From NCBI RefSeq assembly GCF_001434475.1, contig NZ_AZGF01000003.1, positions 1 to 64,000 on the forward strand: a stretch of 64,000 nt of DNA. Direction: 5' to 3'. Positions 20,023 to 40,054 of the stretch are shown one piece after another. Source of the DNA: Paucilactobacillus suebicus DSM 5007 = KCTC 3549. GTDB lineage: Bacteria > Bacillota > Bacilli > Lactobacillales > Lactobacillaceae. Positions within the stretch are counted from its first letter, which is position 1, and each line of letters starts with the position of its first letter. The position numbers were made by a program, and so were the translations under genes. The notes beneath the pieces were generated by a model that did not search any database, was not told the DNA's origin, and saw only the letters and a program-made list of their open reading frames with translations.

Positions 20023-20066
20023 AAAAAATAGACGCATTACCTTAGATTTGAGGTAATGCGTCTATT
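20023..20066 (-). terminator. terminator between etfA and ilvD
   Basis: A perfect 16-bp stem (20027-20042 with 20051-20066) has an A-run at its left side, giving a U-run for the minus-strand ilvD transcript. It probably also stops the etfA transcript from the other side, though the T-run there is missing. Confidence 0.85.
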
Positions 20067-20083
20067 AGTATGCAGTATAAAAA

Positions 20084-21778: not shown

Positions 21779-21955
21779 ATGTATTTCTCCTTCCGAAACC
21801 ACAAACTAACTACCTTGTTGGTTTCTAATCGTATTTTAACATAGAAAGCTTTGTATATAGATGGATTATAAGTAAATTAAATAAAAAACTTGAAAGTTAA
21901 AGCATTTAATGTAAAAATACAACTACTTTAGTAATTTTTGAAGGAGGTCAAAACA

Positions 21956-22297: not shown

Positions 22298-22351
22298 TGT
22301 TACAATAAATACATATTTTAAATTCATTTATTAGGAGAAGTGATAGTTTTG

Positions 22352-22705: not shown

Positions 22706-22748
22706 AGCTACAATACAGTGTGGACCTGTAAGGAGCTTTACTTTTCTT
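22702..22748 (+). terminator. terminator after the DUF488 gene
   Basis: GTAAAGCT (22702-22709) pairs with AGCTTTAC (22734-22741), and an inner TACAG/CTGTA stem lies in the loop. A T-rich run follows. The stop codon is inside the left arm. Confidence 0.75.
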
Positions 22749-22760
22749 TTGACTAATATT

Positions 22761-23306
22761 TTATCCAAACATAGTTTTTATATTTTTATTTTTAACATTA
22801 TTGTCCAAACGACAAACTATACCAAGAAATAAATCGTCGTTTTTTAAAAAGTCGATAATCTGAGTTGCTACAGTAGATTGCAATAGTTTAATTTCTTCGA
22901 AAGCTTTTTTCTGCGAAATAATATTACACATAATACCCTCACTATTGTCAGTGGGGATTTTTTCCTGTGCGTCCAATTTACTGGAATCTCTAATAACATA
23001 AATAACGCCATATTTATCAGTACAAAGATAATAATATTTCTTTTTTTTGTTATCAAAAATCGTATCCGTTGAATTCATTCTCTTGAAATCTGTATTGAGT
23101 ATACGTCGTACTTCTTTCAATTTATTTTGTAACGATGTGTACTCACCACAGGTTTCACATTTAGATGTATCTGAGCCAATTATGTGATCGCTATGGTTAA
23201 TGTCATGGTCATTATTGAGGTCTATACTTTGTGCTAACATCAACCCTCGATAGTGCTTTAACTCAAATTTCATTTCATTATTGTTGTCATTTTTTAAAAA
23301 ATTCAA
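22761..23306 (-). CDS. hypothetical protein with a CxxC motif, 181 residues
   Basis: I do not recognise a family. The sequence is AT-rich, Asn/Lys-rich and soluble. It has CETCGEYTSLQNKLKEVRRI at about residue 50, which could bind a metal or be redox-active, then a strand-rich middle (KKYYYLCTDKYGVIYVIRDS) and a basic end. It lies 48 bases after asnB on the same strand and would be the last gene of the GT-C/asnB group. Base composition matches the AT-rich envelope island rather than the housekeeping flanks. The start is not firmly fixed, because an upstream ATG and an internal ATG (NNNEMKFELKHYRG) both fit. Confidence 0.6.
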   Translation of the reverse strand: MNFLKNDNNNEMKFELKHYRGLMLAQSIDLNNDHDINHSDHIIGSDTSKCETCGEYTSLQNKLKEVRRILNTDFKRMNSTDTIFDNKKKKYYYLCTDKYGVIYVIRDSSKLDAQEKIPTDNSEGIMCNIISQKKAFEEIKLLQSTVATQIIDFLKNDDLFLGIVCRLDNNVKNKNIKTMFG

Positions 23307-23354
23307 TTTATCAGACTCCTATCCAAAATAATTGAATTGGTTACTCATTTCTTG

Positions 23355-25217
23355 TTATTTAAAACTGGTTAGATCATGGCTTGAATATATGCCATACCAA
23401 GTTAAAAAGGCTAGTATGGTCCAAATTTTCCTCGAATTATCTTTGGTTCCATCACGGTGATCATTTAATAATTTTAGTACATAATCTTTGTTAATTATGT
23501 CATCAGCCGATGAATGCTTAATAATTTTTCTGGCCCATTCGTAAAGATCATCTTTTAACCAATCATTGAGCGGAACTGTGAAATTTAGCTTCTGGTGATT
23601 AACCACTTCGTCAGGTAGAAAAAACTTTGCCGCTTCTCTTAAAGCTATCTTTGTCTGCCCATGATTTACTTTTAATTTTGTGGGAATTGTTTTCGATAAT
23701 TCGTATATTCTCCTATCGACAAACGGTGTTCTTAATTCAAGTCCAAAAGCCATCGACGTACGATCAGCATTTAACAATAAATTATCTGGCAACCAGTAAT
23801 GTAAATCGATATCTTGCATTCTTGAAATTGGATCAGAACCGATTGATCTTTGATATTCACTGTTAACAGCTTGAAAGAATGGCCTTGAAAGATTGTAGTG
23901 GTTCATTAATTGTTGCTTTTCATCTTCTTTAAATATTTTGGTACCCACAAACCTTTCTTCTAAGGGAGTTGTACCACGTAGTAAAAAGTTTTTGAATCGT
24001 GAGCCGTCGGTATCATTACTTAATGATTCCTTTATGGAATTTTTTAAGGATTTGGGCAATAATTTAAACCATTTAAGTGACTTTGGCTCAGTGTAAATTC
24101 TATAACCACCGAACATTTCGTTGGCGCCCTCTCCTGACATTATAACTTTGCAATAATTGCTACTAAGTTTTGCCAAAAAATATTGAGTAAACGCAGCAGG
24201 ATCCGCCAGTGGATCGTCTATATAGTAAATAAAATTAGAAAACTCTTTCATAAAATCATCAGGTGTGATAATTAAACTTTCGTTATCAACTTGTAATGCG
24301 TTAGCCGTTTGTTTTACTAAATCCAGTTTGTTATACCCCTTTCTATCGAATCCAACAGAAAATGTTTTAATTTTTGGGTTAATTTCTCTAGCTATTGCCA
24401 CAATAATTGAAGAGTCGATTTCTCCGGATAGAAAAGCACCTATTGGAACGTCTGATCTCATATGTTTTTCTACTGAATCCTGTAGGGTCTCTATAATCGA
24501 CTGTATTAAATTATTTTTATTGATTTTATTATTTGGGACAATCTTCGCATCAAAGTATTGTTGAATATGCATCCGTCCATAAAAAGTTTTAGTAAAGCTA
24601 TGGCCTGGCAATAGTTCAATAATATTGTTGCTTAATGTGGATTCGCCCGGAATATACTGATACGTAAAGTAATCCTGTAGCGCATTCATATTGATATCAT
24701 CGTTCTTAATATTCTTCATCAATGATTTTTTTTCTGATGAAAAATATATTTTTTTATTCGTTTCAAATAAAAATAATGGTTTAATGCCAAAGTGATCTCT
24801 TGCACCAAAAACCTCATGAGTCTTGGTGTCCCAAATTACAAACGAGAACATACCTCTCAAATGGGTTACAACAGCACTACCATATTTTTTATAGCCGGCA
24901 AGCAAAATCTCAGTATCTGAGTGAGTTTTAAATTCGTAATTTTCTCTTTCAAGTGATTTCCTTAAATCTATATAATTGTATATCTCTCCGTTAAAGACAA
25001 TCCAGTAACGATCATTATCGTAAGATAGTGGTTGTTTACCTTGATCAAGGTCAATAACACTCAGTCTTCTGTATCCGACACTAATATCATTGTTTTGATA
25101 ATAAATTTCATCATCTAGCCCTCGGTGTTCAGTTTGTTTACACATCAATCTAATCTCACGCATATCAATACTTTTTTCACCATTACCATTATGAATTACA
25201 CCAACAAAGCCACCCAT
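23355..25217 (-). CDS. asnB: AsnB-like asparagine synthetase/amidotransferase with altered active sites
   Basis: A 620-residue class-II amidotransferase, full length for AsnB. Recognisable are FNGEIYNYIDLR and SDTEILLAGYKKYG in the N-terminal glutaminase domain, GARDHFGIKPL, and the C-terminal ATP-pyrophosphatase domain. Key residues differ from the family. Residue 2 is Gly (MGGFVG) instead of the nucleophile Cys, HRGPD is HRGLD, the P-loop SGGIDSS is SGEIDSS, and GEGADE is GEGANE. Each differs from the usual codon by one base as far as I can judge. It should not use glutamine and may not activate aspartate at all. AsnB relatives amidate peptidoglycan in lactobacilli, which fits its place 18 bases after a membrane glycosyltransferase gene. 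It is a pseudoenzyme or a decaying gene. Confidence 0.85.
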   Translation of the reverse strand: MGGFVGVIHNGNGEKSIDMREIRLMCKQTEHRGLDDEIYYQNNDISVGYRRLSVIDLDQGKQPLSYDNDRYWIVFNGEIYNYIDLRKSLERENYEFKTHSDTEILLAGYKKYGSAVVTHLRGMFSFVIWDTKTHEVFGARDHFGIKPLFLFETNKKIYFSSEKKSLMKNIKNDDINMNALQDYFTYQYIPGESTLSNNIIELLPGHSFTKTFYGRMHIQQYFDAKIVPNNKINKNNLIQSIIETLQDSVEKHMRSDVPIGAFLSGEIDSSIIVAIAREINPKIKTFSVGFDRKGYNKLDLVKQTANALQVDNESLIITPDDFMKEFSNFIYYIDDPLADPAAFTQYFLAKLSSNYCKVIMSGEGANEMFGGYRIYTEPKSLKWFKLLPKSLKNSIKESLSNDTDGSRFKNFLLRGTTPLEERFVGTKIFKEDEKQQLMNHYNLSRPFFQAVNSEYQRSIGSDPISRMQDIDLHYWLPDNLLLNADRTSMAFGLELRTPFVDRRIYELSKTIPTKLKVNHGQTKIALREAAKFFLPDEVVNHQKLNFTVPLNDWLKDDLYEWARKIIKHSSADDIINKDYVLKLLNDHRDGTKDNSRKIWTILAFLTWYGIYSSHDLTSFK

Positions 25218-25235
25218 TTAAATAACCCTCCATTA

Positions 25236-27185
25236 TTAAATCTTATGTTCATCGGAAGTAGCAACACTTTTAACGTAATACCTCAAGTAAGTGTCATTCA
25301 TATTTTTTACGTGAAACTCACCTACCGGGTAACTTGATTGAACACCGCCTAATTTTAGATCTCTATTACTTAAGTTTTTAACGCTGACATTTAAAACGCC
25401 CGCTTTTTGAGATGCGTAGGAAATATTATTGATACTCGTTGAACTACCTATTTCCTTTTTTATAATTTTACCGTCATGTTTAATAACAACCTTAACCGGA
25501 ACCTGTATGTGACCACTAACTAATTCGATATTGGAACTATTTGAGTGAGTAACAATATTAGATGAAATCGTCTGGTTAGGCTTAATATCAATCATTTCGT
25601 TATCAAAATAACGTCCATCGCCCTGTTCAGCAACAAGTAAATCTTTTTTAACAACATTAGAATTTTTAAATTCATTACCAAACGTACTCAGTAGCGCTAA
25701 GGTGACAATGCCTGAAAAGAAAATTTTCTTTTTAATTACCAATCGACTGAATACTTCAGAATTACTAAAGCTTGAAACGCTCCATAACATTAATATTGGA
25801 AGTAGCGGAACTGCATATCTTGGTTCCACTTCCCAAAAAATAATGTGAAAACTACTCAAACCAAGTGCAATCAAAATTGCTAAGCCATTGTTATCTTGAT
25901 TACGGGTGCTTAAGAAACTGAAAGCTGAACTTATAAATAAAAATACTAGAAAAATTTGAGAGATTAGAGATATCCAAGAATTAACTATGTCTTGATTGTA
26001 TAGATACCAACTTGGTTCTTTTTCCCACTGTGTAGTTAATTTCAAACTGTCAAATGTACCAGATGAAGTAAACACAAAGCTCTTTTTCAAAAGGTGTTGC
26101 GCTAAGCCAATAAATCCCATATTTTTAATTCGATCTTTAATAATTTTTTTCTCGGAAGTTTCTTTTCGTGTTTTTGTTTGTAAACTCATTTGATAGTGTG
26201 CATCCTGATAATCATATTCGCCGTTTGTGTTTGGATTTAATGACATTGCAATCCAGCTGGTTGCTGGTAGTTCTTCATTTGGTCTAGCCTGATAATCGTA
26301 AACATGATTTTCTAATTGAAATGTGCCAATTCCAATGAAAATACAAACTATGCTAATTATCACGGATGTTAGTAGATTTTTACTTGACCACTGCTTTTTT
26401 ATTAGCTTTGTTACTATCATAATTCCAACGGCAATCAGCAAGACGATCATATTTGGTTTAATGAGTGTGCTGAAAATATCCAGCAAAACCATAACAGCAA
26501 AAGAAGCGTATTTTTTATATCCAACATTTGTATCAAAATATATCCACAAAGCGAAGGTTATGATTGGAACAGGTATTACAAATGCATCTGAATAGACAAA
26601 TAGTCCGTATGCATATAAAGGAACACTAAATAGCCAAAATATTGCGAATATAATTTTTAAAGTGTCCATTTTCCAGTAATGGAAAATCTTTATCCCTGCT
26701 AATAGTGCCATGTCAATCCAGACGAATTGAATGATATTAACAGATTGCCAAACGTAGTTAACGGAGAATATTCGAACAAATTTGAGTATATATACTAATA
26801 AATAAACATAGTTTACATTGTTTTTATAGACATAAAAATAATTGGCCCACTTAGTTGTCCCTTTAACTAGTGCCATTGCTTGATTTCTGACAAAAAAAGA
26901 ATCAGCCCTACCGTAATCCACAAAATTAAAAGAAAACCATAGTTGCGTTAAAAAAATTAACAACAAAACTACTGCTAACACAATCTTTTTAATTCTGGTG
27001 TTCATTCTGTTTATCAATACATACATTATTCTTGTAACTAGTATTAGGGTTATTGCACCAAACATTATCCAGAATGGGCTAACCAAGAAGGAACTTTGAT
27101 TAGTTAACATGGAATAAAAAGATGCCATCAACGAAATTGAAAAGAATATTAAAACACCAACGATTTTGATTTTTGATAGATTCAC
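25236..27185 (-). CDS. GT-C-like membrane glycosyltransferase, copy A
   Basis: A 649-residue polytopic membrane protein. About 12 hydrophobic helices are spread over residues 8-500. An early acidic loop NFVDYGRADSFFVRNQAMAL and the loop KWANYFYVYKNNVNYVYLLV are followed by a C-terminal extracellular beta-rich domain (about 510-645). It resembles GT-C enzymes that take a sugar from a polyprenyl-phosphate donor outside the membrane. Two relatives lie at 30929-32902 and 34584-36524. Residues about 200-320 are almost identical to the copy at 34584, including 109 bp of identical DNA. It is followed by asnB after 18 bases. Acceptor and sugar are unknown. Confidence 0.8.
   Translation of the reverse strand: MNLSKIKIVGVLIFFSISLMASFYSMLTNQSSFLVSPFWIMFGAITLILVTRIMYVLINRMNTRIKKIVLAVVLLLIFLTQLWFSFNFVDYGRADSFFVRNQAMALVKGTTKWANYFYVYKNNVNYVYLLVYILKFVRIFSVNYVWQSVNIIQFVWIDMALLAGIKIFHYWKMDTLKIIFAIFWLFSVPLYAYGLFVYSDAFVIPVPIITFALWIYFDTNVGYKKYASFAVMVLLDIFSTLIKPNMIVLLIAVGIMIVTKLIKKQWSSKNLLTSVIISIVCIFIGIGTFQLENHVYDYQARPNEELPATSWIAMSLNPNTNGEYDYQDAHYQMSLQTKTRKETSEKKIIKDRIKNMGFIGLAQHLLKKSFVFTSSGTFDSLKLTTQWEKEPSWYLYNQDIVNSWISLISQIFLVFLFISSAFSFLSTRNQDNNGLAILIALGLSSFHIIFWEVEPRYAVPLLPILMLWSVSSFSNSEVFSRLVIKKKIFFSGIVTLALLSTFGNEFKNSNVVKKDLLVAEQGDGRYFDNEMIDIKPNQTISSNIVTHSNSSNIELVSGHIQVPVKVVIKHDGKIIKKEIGSSTSINNISYASQKAGVLNVSVKNLSNRDLKLGGVQSSYPVGEFHVKNMNDTYLRYYVKSVATSDEHKI
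26415..26523 (-). repeat. 109-bp inverted repeat, left copy
   Basis: The reverse complement of these 109 bases is identical to 35255-35363. It lies in copy A and codes for GYKKYASFAVMVLLDIFSTL and the next residues. A wider stretch of about 330 bp around it is strongly similar between the two genes. Confidence 0.9.
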
Positions 27186-27383
27186 ATTTTCACCTGTTAT
27201 AATTTATTTTAATTTAGTAATTAATCACCCCGTATTTCACTTTCACGAGTAAGCATAGTCGAACAAAAATACTTAAAAAAGACCATAAAAATAAAATTAA
27301 AATGAGATTTTCACACTAAACTAAAAAGTACTATGATAATTTCACAGCGTCGATAAAAATTTACTTAATTTATGAGATAGTCA

Positions 27384-27412
27384 TTGAATAAAAAAATTTG
27401 TGGTAGTATGTT
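27384..27412 (+). promoter_or_regulatory. promoter of the response regulator gene
   Basis: TTGAAT and TATGTT are spaced by 17 bases. The start site would be about 27419, so the RNA begins right at the hairpin 27421-27480. Confidence 0.55.
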
Positions 27413-27420
27413 TACTCGCG

Positions 27421-27484
27421 GATCGTGTTGAACTTTTTGCCTATGTAACATATCAGTCTTGTCTTTCATTCAACACGATCTTTT
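27421..27484 (+). ncRNA. leader hairpin (attenuator or small RNA) before the response regulator gene
   Basis: GATCGTGTTGAA (27421-27432) is the exact complement of TTCAACACGATC (27469-27480), with a 36-base loop, followed by TTTT and then TCTCG. With the promoter just upstream, this makes a terminator-like element at the 5' end of the transcript. It may be an attenuator or a separate short RNA of about 65 bases. The rest of the gap 27186-27515 is AT-rich with TTTCAC motifs. Confidence 0.5.
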
Positions 27485-27515
27485 CTCGTACATACCTATA
27501 ATTGGAGGTTATAAA

Positions 27516-28214
27516 GTGAATAAAACAGTCTTATTAGTCGAAGATGAAATTGGATTAATTGATTCTCTTAAAACCGAATTTGAGTTTGAAAATTATAACG
27601 TTTTAACATCTGCAAACGGAATCGATGCGGTTGATTTATTTTTAAAAGAACGAGATAAAATTGATTTAATTTTACTCGACTGGATGTTGCCTAAATTAGA
27701 TGGTCTGGGTGTCTTAAGAAGAATTAAAAAGGATGGAGATGTACCAATCATTATGTTAACCGCTCGTGATTATACTGGTGATAAAGTTGCCGGTCTTCTT
27801 GAGGGGGCTGATGATTACGTAACCAAGCCTTTTGATACTGAAGAATTATTAGCACGAATGGAGGTTGTTCTTCGACGCCCAAGTTCAAACCATTTACAGG
27901 GTAACGATGGTGTTTACAGGTTGGATGACTTAATTGTTGATAATGATAAACATCAGGTAATTAGAGGTTCTCACAATATTCAACTAACACAGCGTGAATT
28001 CAACCTTTTATTAGAGTTAATTAAGCATTCCGGAAAAACGTTTACTCGTGATGAATTAATAAATTCAGTATGGGGAGTTGATTTTGACGGGTTACCAACC
28101 GTCGTTGATGTATATATTCGATACTTGAGAAATAAAATTGATAGAATACCAGGAGAAAACAAATTGATTCACACTACTCGAGGCGTTGGTTATTCTTTAT
28201 CCTTAAACAGATAA
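27516..28214 (+). CDS. OmpR-type response regulator without a partner kinase nearby
   Basis: A two-component DNA-binding regulator of 232 residues. The receiver domain starts VNKTVLLVEDEIGLIDSL and has the phosphoacceptor aspartate at about D55 in LILLDWMLPKLDG, the conserved Thr in MLTARD and the lysine in YVTKPFD. The winged helix domain has LTQREFNLLLELIKH and PTVVDVYIRYLRNKID. The GTG start at 27516 follows GGAGG by seven bases. No histidine kinase is in this region. The gene is divergent from the copy A/asnB genes and upstream of the DedA-PAP2-GT2 genes, so it is likely to control envelope functions. A strong terminator follows. Confidence 0.95.
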   Translation: MNKTVLLVEDEIGLIDSLKTEFEFENYNVLTSANGIDAVDLFLKERDKIDLILLDWMLPKLDGLGVLRRIKKDGDVPIIMLTARDYTGDKVAGLLEGADDYVTKPFDTEELLARMEVVLRRPSSNHLQGNDGVYRLDDLIVDNDKHQVIRGSHNIQLTQREFNLLLELIKHSGKTFTRDELINSVWGVDFDGLPTVVDVYIRYLRNKIDRIPGENKLIHTTRGVGYSLSLNR

Positions 28215-28519
28215 AAAAGCTGACTAACATTATTTTTTATAATTTCACAACTATATAATATTTGTAGCAATGTGCCCTATGACTGTTTATTTACATGAAA
28301 AAAGTTCTTCATAATCTATGAAGAACTTTTTTTGTTTATTGAAATTTCACATATAACTGTATTCATATATATAGCTTCCGGTTGTCATGAAAGAATAAAT
28401 GAGATTTTATCATCTGACTATTATTTTAACGATCTTTTTTAACTTCAATTGTTCTAATAATATGAATACCGAGATACGGGTCTCACAAAGTAAAAAAAGA
28501 GATAAAGAGAGGTAGTTAA
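28215..28519 (+). other. intergenic region before the DedA gene
   Basis: This stretch of 305 bases has no gene. It contains the response regulator terminator (28298-28332) and TTTCACA at 28243 and 28345, the same heptamer seen before the response regulator. I see no clear sigma-A promoter, although TTGAAA at 28339 could be a -35 box. Confidence 0.5.
28298..28332 (+). terminator. terminator of the response regulator gene
   Basis: AAAAAAGTTCTTCATA and its exact complement form a 16-bp stem with a three-base loop and a T-run. Confidence 0.92.
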
Positions 28520-29170
28520 ATGATAACGTCGTTAATGACATCAATTTTAAATATTAGTCACTTGTTACCTCAAGTGATTGCACAGTTCGGCTGGTTAACC
28601 TATATTGGATTATTTGGGATAATTTTCATTGAGACAGGTTTAGTTCTTTTCCCTTTTCTTCCAGGAGATTCAATTTTATTTTTGTGTGGTTCAATTGCAG
28701 CTTTATCAAATCATCCACTTAATCACATAATTCTAATCATTGTATTGTCAATTGCAGCAATTTTAGGTGACTTCGTTAATTTCGAAATTGGTCAGCATTT
28801 GGGTAAACATTTAACCGGTTCTAATAAATGGAGTAAATGGATAAAGCCAAAATATGTGAAAGATGCTCAGTCCTTTTTCAATAGACATGGTTCATCCGCC
28901 ATTTTTTTAGGAAGATTCGTTCCAATTATCCGAACCTTTATCCCCTTTACTGCTGGTGCCAGCAAAATGCAATATAGAAAATTTGCTATTTTTAATATTT
29001 TAGGTGCGTTTTCATGGGTTGCCGTGGCCGTACTTGCTGGTTTCCTTTTTGGAAATGTTTCAATTGTCAAGGCTCACTTTGAGCTAATTATGGTGGCAAT
29101 TATTATAATTTCACTGGCACCTGCCGTCTTGATGAGTGTAATTCAAAATAAGAGAAATGTTGGATTGTAA
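28520..29170 (+). CDS. DedA-family membrane protein
   Basis: A 216-residue integral membrane protein of the DedA/SNARE-associated family. Typical text is ETGLVLFPFLPGDSILFLCG near residue 40, GHQLG-like ISQHLGKHL, FFNRHGSSAIFLGRFVPIIRTFIPFTAG (about 115-145), and helices at the end. Some DedA members move undecaprenyl phosphate back across the membrane. Since the next genes use or release such carriers (PAP2, GT2, GT-C), that role is plausible here but is an inference. The ATG follows GAGGTAG. It is separated from PAP2 by 142 bases, which hold an 8-bp inverted repeat (ATTATTTC/GAAATAAT). Confidence 0.92.
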   Translation: MITSLMTSILNISHLLPQVIAQFGWLTYIGLFGIIFIETGLVLFPFLPGDSILFLCGSIAALSNHPLNHIILIIVLSIAAILGDFVNFEIGQHLGKHLTGSNKWSKWIKPKYVKDAQSFFNRHGSSAIFLGRFVPIIRTFIPFTAGASKMQYRKFAIFNILGAFSWVAVAVLAGFLFGNVSIVKAHFELIMVAIIIISLAPAVLMSVIQNKRNVGL

Positions 29171-29312
29171 ATTTACAATCCTTAAGATTTATCGTTTATG
29201 TTGTTAATTATTTCGATATCTGAAATAATTGTAATGGGTTTCAAATTAAGAATAATATTATACGATTAATATAAAATGAATAAAATAATTTATTTGAAAG
29301 GAATTAATTATA

Positions 29313-29978
29313 ATGCATAAACATAGTATGTGGTTAGTTACTGGTATTGTATCAACCATTTTGTTTATTTTTATCGTATTTGGAGTAATCACTAAAAACA
29401 ACGTTATAACAAATTTTGATTTTGTTTGTCAGGCTGCAGTTGGATCAATGGTAAATCCAAATGCTACACGAATCATGTCTGTTGTTGCATTTTTTGGAAG
29501 CCCTACTGTGAACATTGTACTAACGATATTAATAGCCATCGTCCTTTGGATCATAAAAGACAAAATAATTGCTTTATGGATTATGTGTACCCAACTTGGA
29601 GGAAGTGCTTTAGCATTTATCATTAAAGAGTTAGTTCACCGACACAGACCAGGTATGCAAATAATAAAAGATAGTGGTTTCAGTTTTCCAAGTGGACATA
29701 CTTTTAATACTGCAATCTTAGTGTTGATTGTTATGTTTATTATCGTACCAAAGATTCAGGGGCAAGAATATGAGCTTGTTGTAAATCTGCTCTCAATTAT
29801 ATGGCTATTTGCGGTGGCATTCTCGAGAGTTTATTTAAGAGCTCATTGGCCTTCTGATGTTGTCGGTAGTATCGCTTTAGCTTTAGCTTGGTGGGAAATT
29901 GCACGTATTCTATATTTCAAATTCTCTCCTCTTTTAGAAAAATACTTAAAAATAGATAATTCGAAAGGTAGAAATTAG
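29313..29978 (+). CDS. PAP2-family lipid phosphatase
   Basis: A membrane phosphatase of 221 residues, with five or six helices. The three PAP2 motifs are present: KELVHRHRP (about 105-115), PSGHTF (about 128-133) and SRVYLRAHWPSDVVG (about 168-182). Proteins of this type remove a phosphate from undecaprenyl pyrophosphate or phosphatidylglycerol phosphate outside the membrane. The GT2 gene starts four bases after its stop, so both are in one transcript, which favours a role in recycling the carrier lipid. The ribosome site is GAAAGGAA. Confidence 0.95.
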   Translation: MHKHSMWLVTGIVSTILFIFIVFGVITKNNVITNFDFVCQAAVGSMVNPNATRIMSVVAFFGSPTVNIVLTILIAIVLWIIKDKIIALWIMCTQLGGSALAFIIKELVHRHRPGMQIIKDSGFSFPSGHTFNTAILVLIVMFIIVPKIQGQEYELVVNLLSIIWLFAVAFSRVYLRAHWPSDVVGSIALALAWWEIARILYFKFSPLLEKYLKIDNSKGRN

Positions 29979-29982
29979 TGAC

Positions 29983-30939
29983 ATGGATAAACTTACAATT
30001 GTTGTGCCAGCCTATAATGAGGAAGAGGTTCTACCTGATTCTGTTCGAACACTTTTGAGTGTTGAAGACAAATTAATTAGCTCTCAAATGTTCGATTCAT
30101 CGTCAGACATTTTAATTGTCGATGATGGATCGACAGATGATACATGGAATATTATTAATGAAGAAAATGAAAGAAACAAAAGAATTACTGGTATTAAATT
30201 TAGTCGAAACTTTGGTCACCAAAATGCTTTGATCGCTGGAATGACGGAGGCCATTAAGACTGCAGATATAGTGGTTACAATCGATGCGGATCTACAGGAT
30301 GATCCTAACGCTATTGAGAAAATGACCAGAGAATTTTTAAATGGTTCTGATATTGTATATGGAGTTCGAAATGATCGCCACACGGATACCTGGTTCAAAC
30401 GAACCTCTGCTGGAGCTTTTTACAGAATATTAAATGTATTGGGAGTTCACTTGATTAGAAATCATGCTGACTTTCGGCTGATGTCAAAACGTGCAGTGGA
30501 AGTGCTTCTTGAGTATAAGGAACGAAACCTATTCATCCGTGGCATGATCCCATTAATTGGTTTTCAGAGTTCAAAGGTTTACTACAAGCGATCACCTCGA
30601 ATGGCTGGTGAATCAAAGTATCCGCTTAGAAAAATGTTATCATTTGCGTGGGACGGACTGACGTCCTTTTCGATTGCCCCAGTTAGGGCAATCCTTATGT
30701 TGGGAATATTGTCCAGTCTATTAGGAGTTGCCGCCTTCTTCTATTCAATACTCACTAAGTGGTTTGGATTTACGGTTCATGGATGGTCTTCACTGATGAT
30801 TTCAATTTGGGTTCTCGGTGGTCTGCAAATGGTAAGTTTAGGAGTAATTGGTGAATACATTGGTAAAGTAACCACGGAAGTTAAACAAAGACCAAGGTTC
30901 ACAATCGAAAAGAAAATAGGTTTGCAATATGAAAAATAA
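29983..30939 (+). CDS. GT2 polyprenyl-phosphate glycosyltransferase (GtrB/CsbB-like)
   Basis: A membrane-bound family 2 glycosyltransferase of 318 residues that loads a sugar from a nucleotide sugar onto a polyprenyl phosphate. The N-terminal catalytic domain starts MDKLTIVVPAYNEEEVLPDS. It has LIVDDGSTDDTW, FSRNFGHQNALIAGM and the metal-binding TIDADLQDDP. Two hydrophobic helices follow (about 235-255 and 265-290). The GT-C gene begins inside its last codons (11-base overlap), so donor synthesis and sugar transfer are translationally coupled. This is the usual three-component glycosylation arrangement, but no GtrA-type flippase is seen nearby. Sugar is unknown. Confidence 0.94.
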   Translation: MDKLTIVVPAYNEEEVLPDSVRTLLSVEDKLISSQMFDSSSDILIVDDGSTDDTWNIINEENERNKRITGIKFSRNFGHQNALIAGMTEAIKTADIVVTIDADLQDDPNAIEKMTREFLNGSDIVYGVRNDRHTDTWFKRTSAGAFYRILNVLGVHLIRNHADFRLMSKRAVEVLLEYKERNLFIRGMIPLIGFQSSKVYYKRSPRMAGESKYPLRKMLSFAWDGLTSFSIAPVRAILMLGILSSLLGVAAFFYSILTKWFGFTVHGWSSLMISIWVLGGLQMVSLGVIGEYIGKVTTEVKQRPRFTIEKKIGLQYEK

Positions 30940-32902
30940 AAAATTTTCGTTGCTAACCATTTTTCCGATAATTTTAGTAATCGCACTTTCGATTGGCATT
31001 GTTGCAAATCTTTTTGATTCAGCAAATCCTAATTCAATTTCGATAGTCCTGTTTATTAGCTTAATAATGCTACTAACATGGTTTTTTACAAAAGATAAAT
31101 CTTTTCTAACCGAAAACAGTATCAGAATAATAACTTACAGTACTATTTTATTGATTTTATTGATACAAATTATCGTAATTGCTTATTTCAAAGCCTCAGT
31201 TTATCATGACCCATTTAGAGTATTTTCCCAGGCAGAATTGTTGAGTCGAAATAGTTTTGACTGGTCTCGTTTCACATACTTTTATCGATATCCAAACAAC
31301 GTTAGCCTAGCTTTCTTAATGTCTTTATGGCTAAGAGTATCTAATATTTTCTCAATTTCCACCAATATATCGTTGAACATATTGTCTATTATTTTAATCG
31401 ACAGTTTTATATTGATGATGCTAAAGACCGTCAGGAAAAAATCAAAAAATGATGCACTCTTTATTTTTTTGACCTTATTTTTCCTAATTGGCCCATTTTC
31501 CTACTCATACTATTTACAAGTCTTTTATTCAGATTTACCTTCTATGTATATACTGCTACTAACTTTTATTGTTTTAGACAACTGGAACACTTTAAATAAA
31601 ATAAGACGGTATTTATACGGAATATTATTGTTTTTTGCAATATTGATTGGACAATTAATCAAACCAAATTTGGTTGTTTTCGTTGTGGCCATCGCCATTG
31701 TTTTATTATTTGAGTTTAAAAATAACAAAACGTTAACACGACAAATTATGATTCCTCTATCTATAATATGTATTGGTATCTTTGCGGCCTTTCCAGTTGG
31801 ATCCGAAATTAAGACAATTACTCACTTTTCTAATAATGCAAGATATGAAATGCCATCTTCTAACTGGATTTGGATGAGTTACAAACCGACCGGCCATGGA
31901 ACGTACAATGGTGCTGATATTAAAAAGATGAATTCCCTACCAGATGAAAAAGCTAGGCAAAAATATTTTGCGCCACATTTAATTGAAAGAATAAAAAAGC
32001 TAGGATTTAGTGGAGTTATTAAGTTATGGGTTGTTAAGGCCGGTATTCTTCTAGATACTCGGACTATTCCAAAATCTTACACTGGCGGCTTTATAGAAGT
32101 GCCTCACATTTATGCCAAATTTCAAGATTTTGTAAGTATATTGGAATCGATGTTTTATAGAGCCAGTTTTGTTTTCATTTACATGATAAGCATCATGACA
32201 TTGTTGACTTCATTAAAAACCAAAGAATATCTTAATAGCCCAATCAATATACTAGCGATTGTACTTGCAGTGGGCTATATTGCATTTCATACACTGGTTT
32301 GGGAAACTGAAAGTCGTTACGGCCAAGTTTTATTTCCAATTCTAATTTTTATGGATACTCACCTATCCTTGTCCCAGACAATTAAGATTATGAATAAAAA
32401 TGTAATAGTGATGTGGAGCACGTGCGGATTGATTATAGTCAGTTTGTTTAGCTTTTTTTAAACCCCTGGGCGTAAGCATCCCAGTGTTTTTAGTAAAACG
32501 TCAACTGTTGTTGCAACACAGAGCAGCGAACTATCAACGCAATACAAGCCGAAACTCAATAAATTAAGTAAAGGTAGTGTTGCATCGCAAAAAGTTAAAC
32601 TAAATCAGAGAACTAATAGTTTCTCTTTATTCATGCCACATAAAAACAATATTAACGCATATCTTCTTGATACTAAATCAAGTAAAACTTACAAATTCAA
32701 ATATTCTGATCACAGACTTAGAGTTAAGGCAGATCTTAGGGCTGGAATTTATAAGGTGGTTGTTACCAGTCCAGTAAAAACCAATAATAAGTTTGAGATT
32801 ACAACAACTAAAAAATACAAATTAGCAAATTACCCACTAAGTATAAATGGAAAATCTAATCCTTATCAATCGTTCATTTATGTGGCTAGTTATAATAAAT
32901 AG
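30929..32902 (+). pseudogene. GT-C-like membrane glycosyltransferase, copy C, interrupted by an in-frame stop
   Basis: This is the third member of the GT-C-like family in the island. The first 510 residues hold the membrane helices and loops (FDWSRFTYFYRYPNNVSLAF, ETESRYGQVLFPILIFMDTH). A TAA at 32459-32461 comes right after the last helix (LFSFF). The same frame then stays open for 146 more residues, to 32902, and encodes the extracellular domain that copies A and B carry (STVVATQSSELSTQ aligns with STVVAEQGNGKYFSD of copy B). The full length of about 657 residues agrees with 649 and 646. The membrane part could still be made. It overlaps GT2 by 11 bases. Confidence 0.8.
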
Positions 32903-32921
32903 TGTTAATTTCTACACGAAA

Positions 32922-32954
32922 GGACTATCTAGTCTAATTAGATAGTTCTTTTTT
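32922..32954 (+). terminator. terminator of the DedA-PAP2-GT2-GT-C genes
   Basis: GGACTATCT pairs with AGATAGTTC (one G-U) around a loop, followed by six T. An outer CACGAAA/TTTTCGTG pairing extends it. Confidence 0.82.
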
Positions 32955-33084
32955 CGTGAAAAAATTTAAGATTAAGAACATGTAAATCATAAAAACAATT
33001 CTTTTTTTGCATGGAAGAATCACAATATAATCTTATCCATTGACTATTCTACTAGAATACTAAATGTATGGAGGTAATTATGCC

Positions 33085-34323
33085 TTGGAACAACAGTCAC
33101 TCAAAAAGCCTGCTTATCTTTATGAAATTGACTTCATGCGTCTTTTCTTTATCTTAGGTGTGCTTTTCAATCATGTTATCAATCAGTTTACGGCCAATAT
33201 GGTCTCAGATCCCACTAATACCGAGTATAAATTACTTTCTGTGAGTTTGATAGTTCATTTCACACGAATGGGTTTCATGTTCATGACCGGTGTTGTACTG
33301 ACTCTCAACTATTATCATCGTCATGATTGGTTAACATTTTATCGAAAAAGATTTAATGGTAGCATATGGCCTTATTTAATCTGGAACGCCCTATTATTGG
33401 TAGTTACAATTATTGTTGGTGAAACTACACAGAACACTAAATCCATATTTAGTTGGTCTGGATTTGGCCAACAATTTGTAAATATTATACTTCACGGCAG
33501 TAATTTTTATATGTATTATATGCTAATCATTATGCAACTATATTTAATCTTTCCAGCATTAATGTGGTTATTTCACCATTGGTCAACATATCATAAAAGA
33601 ATTTTAATCATCAGTTTTTTTATTCAACTTGTTGAGCTAATAATAGCAAAATATGTTTTGCCACATGTAGATACATCTAACTGGATTTATTGGATCAAAA
33701 ATTATGACATAAATGTATTTTCGTATCAGTTTTATTTCATCTTTGGCACTTTCACGATACTTCATTATCACGAAATAACAGATTGGATTAGCAAACGAAT
33801 TAAATTTTTGCTACCCACAACCATACTTGCAGCAATCGGTACAGTTGTGTATTTTTGCTGGTATGACAGGATTGTACTTGGTTTAACTGAAGGTAGGTCA
33901 GTATCTCCTCATCAGCCTTATACATTAATTTATGCCATTTTAGTGATTGTCATCATTTTATGGGTTGGACAACACTATGCTATGTGGTATAAAAACGGGA
34001 TGCCTAAATGGCTTTCGTCTGTTGTAAAAAATGGTGCAAGAGTCAGTTTCGGCATGTATCTAGACCAGACAATTGGTCTGCTGATATTGGATGAAACTTT
34101 ACAGCATATACATGTATCAAATACTACAATGCTTTTTTTAATTCCGTTAGGATACGCATTTGTCGTTGCAATATCATTTGGTATTGCTTGGTTTTGTTAT
34201 AAAGTACGTCCATTTGGCTTTTTAATTGGACGGCCAAATTGGCATCCATTTAAGCGAGCTAAAAAAAGCAAGTCCTCCATTAAAACAACTGCAAAAATTG
34301 GCTATGACATAAATACACGTTAA
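33085..34323 (+). CDS. membrane acyltransferase, acyltransferase 3 family
   Basis: A polytopic membrane protein of about 412 residues of the acyltransferase 3 family (OatA/WecH type), which O-acylates cell-wall or surface sugars. The first helix has the family text YEIDFMRLFFILGVLFNHVI with the conserved histidine, followed by TRMGFMFMTGVVLTL and about nine more helices. The C-terminal tail is basic (KRAKKSKSS). Two starts are possible: ATG 33064 and TTG 33085. GGAGG at 33070 supports the TTG, since the ATG would lie before the ribosome site. Its context suggests modification of the surface glycan. No SGNH domain is attached, so it is not a complete OatA. Confidence 0.88.
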   Translation: MEQQSLKKPAYLYEIDFMRLFFILGVLFNHVINQFTANMVSDPTNTEYKLLSVSLIVHFTRMGFMFMTGVVLTLNYYHRHDWLTFYRKRFNGSIWPYLIWNALLLVVTIIVGETTQNTKSIFSWSGFGQQFVNIILHGSNFYMYYMLIIMQLYLIFPALMWLFHHWSTYHKRILIISFFIQLVELIIAKYVLPHVDTSNWIYWIKNYDINVFSYQFYFIFGTFTILHYHEITDWISKRIKFLLPTTILAAIGTVVYFCWYDRIVLGLTEGRSVSPHQPYTLIYAILVIVIILWVGQHYAMWYKNGMPKWLSSVVKNGARVSFGMYLDQTIGLLILDETLQHIHVSNTTMLFLIPLGYAFVVAISFGIAWFCYKVRPFGFLIGRPNWHPFKRAKKSKSSIKTTAKIGYDINTR

Positions 34324-34340
34324 TAAGTCTGGTATATATG

Positions 34341-34383
34341 GGCAATACAATACTTATAAATGGTATTGTGTTGTCTTTTTTTA
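34341..34383 (+). terminator. terminator of the acyltransferase gene
   Basis: GGCAATACAATAC and GTATTGTGTTGTC pair with G-U wobble, followed by seven T. Further on, ACAATATTTTT occurs at 34421 and 34471, and ACAATATT/AATATTGT form an inverted repeat at 34471-34489, so the gap to the next gene holds possible regulatory sites. Confidence 0.75.
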
Positions 34384-34583
34384 TATCAATAATTTTGTTC
34401 AAAGCGTTGGTATTGTTTTAACAATATTTTTTAACCTATAATTAAACACAACAGGTATTTGAATCCGATTACAATATTTTTAATATTGTCTTTTAGCCTA
34501 GTACAATACTGATATTTGTTGGCTAAAGATATAATAATTTATATTACGTTTCTACATTTTATACCCGACAAAGGAGTAAGGAA

Positions 34584-36524
34584 ATGAAACTTGCCAACAA
34601 AATAGTTTCAGTAATATTTTTTTTACTGGCATTGTTACCCTTATTTTCATGGCTAATTATCAGTAAAACCAACTTCAGCTATATTTTTACTGGGATTACT
34701 TTGATAGTCACTACCGGAGTTCTTATTTTACTTGTTCTATTTAGATTAATTTTTATCTTTCTTTCATCCGTTTCTGAAAAAGTGAATAAATGGATTCTAG
34801 CTATTATATTGTTTATGATAATTATTGTTCAATTATGGCTATCCTTCCACTTCATTGATTACGGTAGAGCCGATTCATTTTATGTCCGTAATGAGGCCGT
34901 TGGGTTGAGTTCCGGTATTCATGAATGGAACAATTATTTTTACGTTTACAGCAATAATGTTAACTATACTGAATTTCTCGCCGGCTTAATAAGTGTTCTA
35001 CATTTTTTAAAGTTCACGAATATTTGGCTTGTCATCAACATAATTAACTTTATATGGTTAGATTGCGGATTATTTGCTGCATTAAAAATAGTTTCATTAA
35101 AACATTTGAGTCCTGCAGCAGGCAATATTTTTAGTATTTTGTGGTTATTTAGTTTGCCTATATATTTTTTTGGTCTATTCGTGTATTCAGATGTCATCGC
35201 ACTACCTGTGCCAATCATAACCTTTGCCTTGTGGATATATTTTGATACAAACGATGGATATAAAAAATACGCTTCTTTTGCTGTTATGGTTTTGCTGGAT
35301 ATTTTCAGCACACTCATTAAACCAAATATGATCGTCTTGCTGATTGCCGTTGGAATTATGATAACAACAAAGTTAATTAAAAAACAGTGGTCAAGTAAAA
35401 CAATATTGACGTCCATGATAATTAGCATAGTTTGTGTTTTTATTGGAATTGGCACATTTCGATTAGAAAACAAAGTTTACAATTATCAGGATAGACCAAA
35501 TGAAGAACTGCCAGCGACCAGCTGGATCGCTATGTCTCTAAATTTCTCAAACGAAGGAATGTATAATTTAACAGATGTTCGTAAGCAGATATCGTTACCA
35601 ACTCATAACGCAAAAATAAATTCAGAAAAAAATATTATTAAAAAAAGAATTAAAATGATGGGTGCGTCAGGATTGCTGTTGCATTTCTTTCAAAAGTTAT
35701 CTATTTTTCTGGGATCTGGAACATTTGGCGGAGAAAAATTAACATCTCAATGGGAAATTGAACCAAGTTGGTATAGAGAAAACCATCAGATATTAAATTT
35801 TCAATTTACCATAATTTCTCAAATGTTATTATCCTTTGTTTTTTTAAACTCGGCTATAGGATTTTTGAGACGGAGTTCCAACTATGATAATTTACTGCCA
35901 TTGTTAATTTTTATTGGTTTATCAACTTTTCATATTTTTATTTGGGAAGTAGAAGCAAGATATGCTGTGCCGCTATACCCTCTTCTACTACTGTGGTGTG
36001 CCGATGGTATCGATTCACTTAAAAAAATTACGTTTAAGATTAGCAGATTTAATCAAGTTTTGCTGAGCTTTTGTCTTATTGCTTGTCTTGGGTTGCTGTC
36101 ATTTATCACGCCTAAAGTATTAAATAATAGATTTTCTTCAACCGTCGTCGCAGAACAGGGAAACGGGAAATATTTTAGTGATGAAAATATAACCTTAAAG
36201 GCGAGAGAACGAGTATTTACAACAGTGAAAGTTCATGAAAAAAGCAATATTCTTAAGATATATGGAAACCACAATAGTACAAAGGTTTTGATTATTTTAA
36301 CAATGGACGGTAAGACCATAAAAACAACGACAACCCGGTTATCTGAAGTTACGACAATGAAATACCCGAAACAGAATCCTGGAAAAATAACAATTGAAAT
36401 AAAAAACTTGAGTAACCATGATACTTCATTAGGCGTTGTTCATTCCCATTATCCTGTGGATTCATTCCATATTAGAAATATTAAGAATACTTATCTGACA
36501 TATTATATTATGTTCCAACAATAA
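34584..36524 (+). CDS. GT-C-like membrane glycosyltransferase, copy B
   Basis: A 646-residue polytopic membrane protein, closest to copy A at 25236-27185. It shows about 12 helices, the early loop SFHFIDYGRADSFYVRNEAV, the loop WNNYFYVYSNNVNYTEFLAG, and ARYAVPLYPLLLLWCADG before the last helix. A C-terminal extracellular domain (about 505-646) follows, starting SSTVVAEQGNGKYFSD. GT-C enzymes of this kind transfer a sugar from a polyprenyl phosphate to a surface polymer. GGAGTAAGGAA precedes the ATG. It stands alone, with a terminator behind it, and shares the 109-bp repeat with copy A. Confidence 0.8.
   Translation: MKLANKIVSVIFFLLALLPLFSWLIISKTNFSYIFTGITLIVTTGVLILLVLFRLIFIFLSSVSEKVNKWILAIILFMIIIVQLWLSFHFIDYGRADSFYVRNEAVGLSSGIHEWNNYFYVYSNNVNYTEFLAGLISVLHFLKFTNIWLVINIINFIWLDCGLFAALKIVSLKHLSPAAGNIFSILWLFSLPIYFFGLFVYSDVIALPVPIITFALWIYFDTNDGYKKYASFAVMVLLDIFSTLIKPNMIVLLIAVGIMITTKLIKKQWSSKTILTSMIISIVCVFIGIGTFRLENKVYNYQDRPNEELPATSWIAMSLNFSNEGMYNLTDVRKQISLPTHNAKINSEKNIIKKRIKMMGASGLLLHFFQKLSIFLGSGTFGGEKLTSQWEIEPSWYRENHQILNFQFTIISQMLLSFVFLNSAIGFLRRSSNYDNLLPLLIFIGLSTFHIFIWEVEARYAVPLYPLLLLWCADGIDSLKKITFKISRFNQVLLSFCLIACLGLLSFITPKVLNNRFSSTVVAEQGNGKYFSDENITLKARERVFTTVKVHEKSNILKIYGNHNSTKVLIILTMDGKTIKTTTTRLSEVTTMKYPKQNPGKITIEIKNLSNHDTSLGVVHSHYPVDSFHIRNIKNTYLTYYIMFQQ
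35255..35363 (+). repeat. 109-bp inverted repeat, right copy
   Basis: Identical to the reverse complement of 26415-26523. Outside these 109 bases the similarity goes on at lower identity over about 330 bp. It encodes the same membrane segment in copy B. Confidence 0.9.
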
Positions 36525-36557
36525 AGTTTAGATAGTACTATCTATCATGAAATTAAT

Positions 36558-36591
36558 AAAAGCCACAACCATTAAATTGGCTGTGGCTTTT
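36558..36591 (+). terminator. terminator of copy B
   Basis: AAAGCCACAACCA and TGGCTGTGGCTTT pair with one mismatch around a six-base loop, with T after it. Confidence 0.85.
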
Positions 36592-36910
36592 ATTATTATG
36601 GATAAAGTAGTTTTTATCAAACTATTAAATTCTTCATTATTACGTTCAGGTGAAGTGAGATTGTTTATTCATGGACCCTAACTTCTATTGAATAATTGTA
36701 CACTAAGTACTGCGATTTCTTCAATATAGCAACATGGTCAGATGTTACGAACAAGATTGACAAATGAATATTTTTTTTGATACACAAACAACAATATTCG
36801 ACCTTAAATTAATTATTTAAGTACAGTCAATTAAAATTATCTTGTATAACAAATATAAATTCAGTAAATCAGTATGTCTAAGCAACAAACTGGTTATTAA
36901 AACACTCAAA
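36592..36910. other. AT-rich gap between the envelope island and ffh
   Basis: About 320 bases without a supported gene. I see no strong hairpin that could end ffh on the minus strand, and no clear promoter. This is the point at which the housekeeping order breaks off. Confidence 0.6.
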
Positions 36911-38353
36911 TCATCTGCGCTTCTTATTCTTCTTCATACGTTTTTTCTTGTTCTTTTTCATCTGACGAGACATGCGTTTCATAGCTAAACCACTGAGTTT
37001 GCTACCACCACCGGGCATGTTACCACCCATTAGGTTTTCCATACCAGACATGTTACCGTTTGAGACTTGTTTCATCATCTTTTTCATTTGGTTGAATTGT
37101 TTGATCATGCGGTTGACTTCAACAACAGGTCGACCAGCACCGGCAGCCAAACGACGACGGCGACTTGGGTTTAAGACATCGGGATTTTCTCGCTCCTCAG
37201 GTGTCATTGAATAAACAATTGCCTTGATGTGTTCCATGTCCTTTGGATCAATGTTAGCGTTTTTTAATGCAGGGTTATTAGCCATTCCAGGAATCATCTT
37301 CATGATGTCTTCCATAGATCCCATTTTTTGAACCTGCGACATTTGATCAAGAAAATCGTTGAAATCGAATGAATTTTCTCGCATTTTTTCAACGGTCTTC
37401 TGTGCTTGTTCTTCATCAAAGTCCTTTTGGGCTTTTTCAATCAACGTCAGCATGTCGCCCATGCCAAGAATTCTAGAAGCCATACGATCTGGATGGAAGA
37501 CGTCTAAATCATCCATTTTTTCGCCTTGACCAACAAATTTAATTGGTTTGCCGGTAACGGCACGAATTGACAGTGCCGCACCACCACGAGTGTCACCATC
37601 TAATTTTGTCAGGACAACGCCGGTAATATCTAATTTGTCGTTAAATCCCTGTGCAGTTTCAACGGCATTTTGCCCAGTCATTGCATCAACAACTAACAGA
37701 ATTTCATCCGGGTCGGCTAATTTCTTGATGTTAGCCAGTTCATCCATGAGCTTCTCATCAATCTGTAAACGACCAGCCGTATCAATGATGACATAGTCAT
37801 TGTGTTGGTCCCGGGCCTGCTCAAGACCTTGACGTACAATTTCAACTGGGTCTACATCAGTTCCTAGTTGAAAAACTGGCACATCAATTGATTCGGCAAC
37901 CTGCTCCAATTGATCAATAGCAGCCGGACGATAAATATCGGCAGCAATGAACATTGGACGAGCGTTCTGATCATTTTTCAATTTTAACGCCAATTTGCCG
38001 GCAGTGGTAGTTTTACCTGCCCCTTGAAGACCAGCCATCATGATGATTGTTGGAATCTTTTCAGATTTGTTGAGGTCAACAGCCTCTTCACCCATCATTT
38101 TGGTTAATTCTTCATTAACTATTTTAACAATTTGTTGGGCAGGATTTAATCCCTTGAGAACTTCGGCACCTGCGGCTCGGGTTCTTACTTGTTTAACAAA
38201 ATCTTTGACAACCTTAAAGTTAACATCCGCTTCAAGTAATGCTAAGCGAATATCACGCATCGTTTCGTTAAGGTCAGCTTCAGTAACCTTTGGCTTACGA
38301 CGCAGTTTGGCCATTGTATCTTGTAATCTTTGTGTTAATCCTTCAAACGCCAT
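36911..38353 (-). CDS. ffh: signal recognition particle protein Ffh
   Basis: Ffh (480 residues) binds 4.5S/6S RNA and signal sequences and delivers ribosomes to the membrane through FtsY. The N domain starts MAFEGLTQRLQDTMAKLRRK. The GTPase domain has GLQGAGKTTTAGKLALKLK, DTAGRLQIDEKLMDEL, TKLDGDTRGGAALS and FVGQGEKMDDLDVF. The methionine-rich M domain (about 320-450) ends in a lysine-rich tail. It starts 12 bases after ylxM. Downstream, rpsP is missing from its usual adjacent position, and no strong terminator is seen. Confidence 0.98.
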   Translation of the reverse strand: MAFEGLTQRLQDTMAKLRRKPKVTEADLNETMRDIRLALLEADVNFKVVKDFVKQVRTRAAGAEVLKGLNPAQQIVKIVNEELTKMMGEEAVDLNKSEKIPTIIMMAGLQGAGKTTTAGKLALKLKNDQNARPMFIAADIYRPAAIDQLEQVAESIDVPVFQLGTDVDPVEIVRQGLEQARDQHNDYVIIDTAGRLQIDEKLMDELANIKKLADPDEILLVVDAMTGQNAVETAQGFNDKLDITGVVLTKLDGDTRGGAALSIRAVTGKPIKFVGQGEKMDDLDVFHPDRMASRILGMGDMLTLIEKAQKDFDEEQAQKTVEKMRENSFDFNDFLDQMSQVQKMGSMEDIMKMIPGMANNPALKNANIDPKDMEHIKAIVYSMTPEERENPDVLNPSRRRRLAAGAGRPVVEVNRMIKQFNQMKKMMKQVSNGNMSGMENLMGGNMPGGGSKLSGLAMKRMSRQMKKNKKKRMKKNKKRR

Positions 38354-38365
38354 AACTTACTCCAA

Positions 38366-38707
38366 TCATTCTTCTTCAAGATTTTCTAAGTGAGCAACTA
38401 AATTATTTAGTTTTTCATCTTGAGGGTAGTTTTTTTTAACATATGTCTGAATTTCATCTGCTTGCTGATTACGAGCAACAAATTCGCTGTACAAATGTAG
38501 CTTACTTTCATAACCTTCAAGAATAGTTTCCGTCCGTTTAATATTATCATATACGGCTTGACGACTCACGGAAAATTCTTCGGCAATTTCACCAAGGGAA
38601 AAATCGTCACCGTAATAAAGTTGAATGTAGCTATCTTGTTTTTTGGTCAGTAACGGTTGATAGAATTCAAATAAAGAGTTAATTCTATAGTTTTTTTCAA
38701 TTTCCAT
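38366..38707 (-). CDS. ylxM: YlxM, helix-turn-helix SRP-associated protein
   Basis: A 113-residue protein of the UPF0122 (YlxM/p13) family, which is encoded with ffh in Firmicutes and supports SRP function, in streptococci by stimulating GTPase activity. It has a sigma-70 region 4-like helix-turn-helix: [20 protein letters not shown] followed by [20 protein letters not shown]. It lies 12 bases from both ftsY and ffh in one operon. Length and sequence are usual. It acts in the cytoplasm. Confidence 0.95.
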
Positions 38708-38719
38708 GGCAGTATCCTT

Positions 38720-40054
38720 TTATTTTGTTGGCTCGACGAGTCCCTTGAACAGTCCGTATACAAATTCGCTGGCATCGAACGCTTGCAAATCGTCAACTTG
38801 TTCACCCAAACCAACGTATTTAACTGGAAGATGCAACTCATTTCGAATAGCCAGTACGATTCCGCCACGGGCGGTGCCATCCAACTTGGTAAGTACAATG
38901 CCAGTGACATCTGTGCTCTCTTTGAACAATTTAGCCTGGCTTAACGCATTTTGACCGGTGGTTGAGTCTAGAACCAACAATACTTCATGAGGGGCGTCCG
39001 GAATCTCACGACTGATGATTCGTTTCATTTTCTCCAACTCATTCATCAAGTTAACTTTGTTCTGGAGACGGCCAGCAGTATCAACAAATAAAACATCGTA
39101 ATTCTCTTTTTTTGCTTTGGATACAGCATCAAATACTACTGCAGCCGGATCACTTTTTTCAGGACCTGCAACGACGGGAACATTATCTCTTTTTCCCCAA
39201 ACTTGTAACTGTTGTATAGCGCCTGCCCTAAATGTATCAGCAGCCGCAAGTAAAACTTTTTTACCTTGTTTTTGGTACATAGCTGCCATTTTACCGATGG
39301 TGGTTGTCTTACCAACACCGTTGACACCAACAAATAAGATAATGGTAGGGCCAGATTTAGCAAAATTAATTTCTGTGTGCTCATCCTTACCTTGCTGTTC
39401 ATACAAATCGACCATTTTTTCAATGATCACGTTAGTTACATCCTGTTTGCTTTTGGCATTCTGTAACTTAACTTCTTCACGCAATTGATCACTGATTGAG
39501 ACAGCCATTTCAAAGCCGACATCGGATTCAATTAAGGCCTCTTCCAAATTTTCAAAGAATTCTTCATCAACATGCCGAAAGTTGGCTAATAGTGCATTTA
39601 GTCGAGCACCAAATCCGGTCCTTGTCTTTTCAAGACCCTTTTCATATTTAGAATCTTGTTTCTCCTCCTCATCTTGAATTGGAGAATCGCTAGTTTCAGA
39701 ATCGTTATCGGCGTTTGATTCTGAACTTTCAGATTGTTCTACAGTGTCTTCTTGTTGCAGTTCATCGGGTACCGGTTCTTCAATCGATGAAGCTGAGCTT
39801 TCTGCAGTTTCAGTGGTTTCAACGTCTTCTGTACTATTTTCAGATTCTATCGATTCTTCTTTACCAGGTTCGATAGTCTTTGAATTTGATGAGGTGTTAT
39901 CTGGAACAGCTTCAGCGGCCGTTCTGTCTTCCCCAGTTGTTGGTTGTACCGCACTTTCAGACTTAATTTCAGCTGCAGAGCTGTTTTCTTCTTTTTGCTC
40001 TGACTGTTCGTCTGTTTTACGTGATTTGCGCTTAAAAATGTCAAATAATCCCAT
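38720..40054 (-). CDS. ftsY: signal recognition particle receptor FtsY
   Basis: FtsY (444 residues) is the membrane-associated GTPase that receives the SRP-ribosome complex. It has an N-terminal acidic A region (about residues 1-135, very rich in Glu and Ser), then the N and G domains with LFVGVNGVGKTTTIGKMAAM, VLLAAADTFRAGAIQQL, DTAGRLQNKVNLM, TKLDGTARGGIVLA and KYVGLGEQVDDLQAF. It begins 11 bases after smc. The acidic region is typical and does not point to a fusion. Confidence 0.98.
   Translation of the reverse strand: MGLFDIFKRKSRKTDEQSEQKEENSSAAEIKSESAVQPTTGEDRTAAEAVPDNTSSNSKTIEPGKEESIESENSTEDVETTETAESSASSIEEPVPDELQQEDTVEQSESSESNADNDSETSDSPIQDEEEKQDSKYEKGLEKTRTGFGARLNALLANFRHVDEEFFENLEEALIESDVGFEMAVSISDQLREEVKLQNAKSKQDVTNVIIEKMVDLYEQQGKDEHTEINFAKSGPTIILFVGVNGVGKTTTIGKMAAMYQKQGKKVLLAAADTFRAGAIQQLQVWGKRDNVPVVAGPEKSDPAAVVFDAVSKAKKENYDVLFVDTAGRLQNKVNLMNELEKMKRIISREIPDAPHEVLLVLDSTTGQNALSQAKLFKESTDVTGIVLTKLDGTARGGIVLAIRNELHLPVKYVGLGEQVDDLQAFDASEFVYGLFKGLVEPTK

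Follow-up and report, generated by a model that had tools for sequence, protein, structure and literature searches.

Two homologous genes that lie in opposite orientation on one chromosome can be homogenised by intrachromosomal recombination, with inversion of the intervening DNA as an alternative outcome. This has been followed experimentally in Salmonella, where inversion was found in 5 of 59 recombinants of inverted cassettes (PMC8262849) and in almost half of the conversions of the inverted tuf genes that were selected at one site (PMC5485169). Shuffling at the pneumococcal spnIII locus uses repeats of 85 and 333 bp; it is independent of RecA and, in part, of any known recombinase (PMC6620402). 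Here, we describe a locus of Paucilactobacillus suebicus DSM 5007 = KCTC 3549, a member of the Lactobacillaceae, in which two inverted paralogous genes for putative membrane glycosyltransferases of the GT-C type, A and B, share an identical stretch of 109 bp in their middle. The locus lies within the first 64,000 nucleotides of contig NZ_AZGF01000003.1 (assembly GCF_001434475.1), the stretch analysed here and called the window; all positions refer to it. We consider it likely that A and B are old inverted paralogs whose middle stretch was homogenised by intrachromosomal gene conversion, probably repeatedly, with rare inversion a possible by-product.

The locus resembles several described systems in part. 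As with the Salmonella tuf genes and cassettes, two inverted homologous genes appear to have been homogenised within one chromosome (PMC5485169, PMC8262849). However, the tuf genes resemble each other from end to end (12 nucleotide differences, according to a figure legend; PMC5485169), whereas A and B are alike just in an island, and the events between them are deduced from sequence. In type I restriction-modification systems, inverting hsdS loci likewise have inverted repeats inside duplicated genes, at which recombination would exchange halves in frame. There, switching has been measured, a recombinase gene accompanies some of the loci, and one expressed gene is supplied from silent copies; nothing of this kind was seen for A and B (PMC7394358, PMC6620402). 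Finally, three-component glycosylation combines a GT2 glycosyltransferase, a flippase and a GT-C enzyme, as in CsbB/GtcA/YfhO (PMC7389260), and the present locus likewise has a probable polyprenyl-phosphate-sugar GT2 gene beside GT-C genes. Unlike that system, the scanned proteins of the module between A and B match no GtcA/GtrA-type family, and the module includes DedA, PAP2 and response-regulator genes.

The inverted repeat and the homogenised tract

Gene A (25236..27185, minus strand) encodes 649 amino acids and gene B (34584..36524, plus strand) 646; the two genes are divergent, with their N-termini facing inward, and the proteins are 50% identical overall but only 38% (197/523) outside the tract described below. 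The first-pass annotation had placed 109 identical base pairs, in opposite orientation, in the middle of both genes, and a search of the genome returned just these two places at 100% identity: 26415-26523 in A (minus strand) and 35255-35363 in B (plus strand). Apart from this pair, the window contains a single exact inverted repeat of at least 25 bp, a local palindrome near 11995. When the codon pairs of the A-B alignment were shuffled (635 aligned pairs, 5000 trials), the longest exact run was 35 bp at most, compared with the 109 bp observed.

The repeat is exact as described, yet it forms merely the centre of a larger tract. A maximum-likelihood fit with two breakpoints delimits 334 bp (26242..26575, minus strand, in A; 35203..35536, plus strand, in B; about residues 204-314) that are 91.3% identical, compared with 51.4% in the rest of the alignment; the log-likelihood improves by 106. 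Around the core, longer inverted arms of 408 nt at 88% identity can be drawn (26235-26642 and 35136-35543). This sharp stretch of high identity in a divergent pair is homogenised at synonymous sites too, in three grades: synonymous divergence (pS) is 0.76 outside the tract, 0.35 in its flanks and 0.00 in the core. Among codons for the same amino acid, 96/188 differ outside the tract, close to the 104 expected under random codon choice and hence saturated, whereas 15/60 differ in the flanks (33.6 expected) and 0/33 in the core (19.4 expected). When the 29 mismatches of the tract were shuffled, an uninterrupted match of at least 109 bp arose in a fraction of only 0.0002 of 100,000 trials; the identity of the core has thus probably arisen more recently than that of its flanks.

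The genome is a draft of 81 contigs, and a 109-bp repeat can confuse assembly with short k-mers, especially as to which halves belong together; the two middles might thus have been mis-joined or over-corrected. However, collapsed reads would not give flanks that are 87% identical in both copies, and A and B already differ right at both edges of the core. We therefore regard an assembly artefact as very improbable.

Probable gene conversion between old paralogs

Could the tract instead be a part of the protein that the whole family conserves? Compared with 29 relatives, A has a mean amino acid identity of 0.37 over residues 40-200 and 0.41 over residues 315-470; the value drops to 0.23 in the tract (residues 211-308) and is even lower, 0.20, over residues 471-640. 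Between A and B, the corresponding values are 0.41 (40-200), 0.51 (315-470), 0.90 (211-308) and 0.28 (471-640). Weak conservation of the tract in the family together with its high identity between A and B is explained by gene conversion and not by constraint. Selection for a functional motif of the protein, for an antisense gene or for an RNA would have in its favor that the tract is overlapped by antisense ORFs in A as well as in B and that the LIKPN motif of the core recurs in gene C of the module. It does not account for a tract so poorly conserved among relatives or for a core without a single synonymous change (0/33), and no Rfam match at gathering score was found within 20000-40000. On these grounds constraint of any of these three kinds was rejected as the explanation, and we give it very little weight.

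Quick trees of 30 rows point the same way. The path between A and B measures 1.92 changes per column in the N-terminal part and 1.61 in the C-terminal part but 0.10 in the tract, which argues that the pair is old and that the middle alone was kept alike. The next row to A and B in the N- and C-terminal trees is the same relative (L011), and the C-terminal part of A lies slightly nearer to it (1.56) than to B (1.61), as fits old paralogs. In two other genomic loci (L042 and L046), a gene like A stands divergent beside a response-regulator gene, which suggests that the place of A is old and that B is the extra copy.

We propose that intrachromosomal homologous recombination would have copied the middle stretch of one gene onto the other, i.e. 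ectopic gene conversion, and probably more than once. Earlier events would have homogenised at least 334 bp and a later event would have refreshed a core of at least 109 bp; the three grades of divergence (outside, flanks and core) speak for two or more rounds. With growing divergence of the outer parts, pairing would have become confined to the island, each event resetting it while divergence eroded its edges, so that the island would sustain itself. The recombination was presumably performed by general, RecA-type machinery. The first-pass annotation had offered gene conversion as its fallback, and it is this part of it that the breakpoint fit, the synonymous grades, the family comparison, the trees and the mismatch shuffling strongly support.

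Several points weigh against this reading. A and B are sisters in the N-terminal, tract and C-terminal trees alike (SH-aLRT 85, 98 and 92), so that the signal is a collapse of distance with no topological conflict. At 51% identity, the outer parts are too divergent to pair in ordinary homologous recombination, and the early events would have to date from a time when the genes were more alike, a history that we infer. From one genome the events can be neither counted nor given a direction, and a single event could look like two rounds if its mismatches were repaired patchily.

The pair and a comparable tract were also sought elsewhere. None of six other genomes of the genus has A or B; matches in two of them are 22-29% identical, and one of the six genomes is 76% complete. 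In the family, 178/397 genomes match A, the best outside the own genome at 36-39% identity. A contig scan with the alignment gave 53 loci, all at 38% identity or less. A second genome with both A and B was not found in these searches, nor did a contig scan with A reveal one. Phages gave no match; 41 plasmid records did, the best-ranked at 32% identity and all under 60%. The survey of pairs was partial, covering, besides short match loci, 20 chosen stretches and the 53 named loci; eight pairs outside the window came from the former and six from the latter, with five in both. None of these nine distinct nearby pairs has such a tract: identity over 99 bp peaks at 0.71 and exact matches do not exceed 20 bp, and the three that are inverted (L040, L041 and L042) reach at most 0.66 and 14 bp. 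Among the papers listed by our literature searches, neither titles nor the openings of abstracts mention conversion or inversion inside GT-C genes of lactobacilli, although earlier accounts may exist.

The enzymes, the module and its surroundings

The assignment of A to the GT-C superfamily rests on its membrane fold in an AlphaFold model (mean pLDDT 79). The closest structural match is ArnT, which a second structural comparison returned with Z 21.2 over 323 residues at a root-mean-square deviation of 3.6 (5f15), followed by ALG12, Pmt4 and oligosaccharyltransferases. Foldseek alone was weaker (best E 9.8e-5, PglB, TM 0.35). By sequence, A and B match no Pfam family, a search of solved structures gave no match, and the one NCBIfam model that they touch, TIGR03766, gives 73 bits, far under its cut-off of 500. 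In the model of A, the tract (residues 204-314) spans helices 205-219, 223-242, 244-262 and 268-295 and so follows the N-terminal part and precedes the C-terminal helices and their beta-rich domain. Judging from this predicted fold and the adjoining GT2 gene, A and B would transfer sugars from a polyprenyl-phosphate donor outside the membrane, and the locus would presumably serve to decorate a surface polymer.

All genes between A and B lie on the plus strand. They encode an OmpR-type response regulator (27459..28214), a DedA/VTT-domain protein (28520..29170), a PAP2-family protein (29313..29978), a PgfS-like GT2 enzyme that is a probable polyprenyl-phosphate sugar synthase (29983..30939; 230 bits against a curated PgfS cut-off of 500), the product of gene C and an acyltransferase of the Acyl_transf_3 family (33064..34323). 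Gene C encodes a distant GT-C relative and is interrupted: a reading frame of 510 amino acids (30929..32461) ends at an in-frame TAA, and a further ORF (32633..32902) lies within the remaining C-terminal end. Over 30929-32902, relatives of 654 and 662 amino acids align across the stop in the same frame. Gene C had been taken for a third copy of A and B; at 25-27% identity to them, and with its stop, it does not qualify as one.

Sister modules on another contig of the same genome (C45) and in a second genome (G001) consist of a response regulator, a histidine kinase, DedA, PAP2, GT2 and C, with the kinase gene between the regulator and DedA genes (L146:7020-8375 and L148:5069-6424). No relative of this kinase was found in the window at E up to 0.01, and a gap (28214-28520) follows the regulator gene. 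In L042, too, the kinase is missing at this place, DedA following 109 bp after the regulator gene, so that its absence alone is no proof that the module is decaying. Downstream of A, on the same strand and after a gap of 18 bp, lies an asparagine-synthase-like gene (23355..25217). A 181-aa protein (22761-23306) without a Pfam or NCBIfam match has a 35% identical relative beside DedA in another genome (G005; L147:13365-13826), so that it may belong to the module.

The region from 22000 to 37000, next to ffh, is a low-GC islet (31-34% against about 40% around it). In the three members of the genus with a long stretch available downstream of ffh (G001, G004 and G005), nothing related to A, B or the module lies there; G003 and G006 contributed just 2440 and 388 bp to this comparison. 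Elsewhere in the window, a dihydroxy-acid dehydratase (ilvD-like) gene (20084-21802) contains one in-frame TAG at 21065 that divides it into two ORFs of the same frame, and the 46-bp palindrome at 11995-12040 lies between two ORFs and is perhaps a terminator.

Possible inversion of the intervening segment

The first-pass annotation had seen that recombination between the repeats could turn around 8.7 kb and swap the halves of A and B, and the coordinates, strands and frame bear out this geometry. Crossover resolution of conversion intermediates would invert 8731 bp (26524..35254). Since the core begins at offsets 662 and 671 of the two genes, both 2 modulo 3, it stands in the same reading frame in A and B, and such a crossover would exchange the halves in frame. 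By analogy with the Salmonella genes, inversion may occur at a low rate if conversion recurs, and it may well have occurred at times on an evolutionary scale.

That the segment flips so as to vary a surface glycan, as had also been suggested, is another matter, and the analysis did not bear it out. The single assembly, the one genome of the species, has one orientation, and no inversion was observed. Programmed inversion, in which an invertase would use the repeat as its site, as known for shufflons and for hsdS loci that carry a recombinase, could appeal to an inverted repeat placed within two related genes. However, none of the genome's 8 Phage_integrase and 5 Resolvase matches lies on the contig of the window (C23), the two recombinase families for which we searched; the core lacks perfect palindromes of at least 8 bp, and graded flanks of 87% identity are unexpected, in our view, for a short crossover site. 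The lack of an integrase or resolvase on the contig is not decisive, given that spnIII switches without RecA and in part without a known recombinase. Still, nothing points to a dedicated or programmed switch, and we find it scarcely credible.

It is also conceivable that recombination without a dedicated enzyme inverts the 8.7 kb often enough for living populations to be mixtures that include cells with chimeric glycosyltransferases. The geometry and frame fit, the Salmonella cassettes and tuf genes do invert, spnIII shuffles in part without a known recombinase, and the tract lies at a boundary between parts of the enzyme. On the other side stand the single orientation in one assembly, the interrupted gene C and missing kinase gene of the module, and the lack of a half-exchange signal. 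We counted agreement with A or with B at the columns in which they differ, N-terminal against C-terminal part: for the 12 relatives counted, out of 33 in the alignment, there was no sign of exchange (Fisher p at least 0.16 each), nor was there with the majority residues over all 33 (p = 1.0), both being tests of low power. Frequent inversion is thus not supported, and we think it unlikely. A is closer than B to the 29 relatives in 28/29 cases over residues 315-470, in 20 against 8 over 40-200 and in 16 against 13 over 471-640; this relative-rate pattern was considered as a trace of swapped halves and rejected, as it is no evidence for a swap.

A still more doubtful extension is that recurrent recombination both keeps the island alive and flips the module, with a crossover point dividing the N-terminal GT-C part from the C-terminal part. 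Populations would then hold native and chimeric GT-C enzymes, and a lactic acid bacterium would switch glycan specificity without a dedicated recombinase. At present, the locus stands as a modest evolutionary observation: a clean natural case in which conversion has seemingly shrunk to a self-sustaining island between otherwise saturated paralogs. Swapped halves in strains of this species, if they exist, would link gene conversion, inversion and the diversification of glycosyltransferases.

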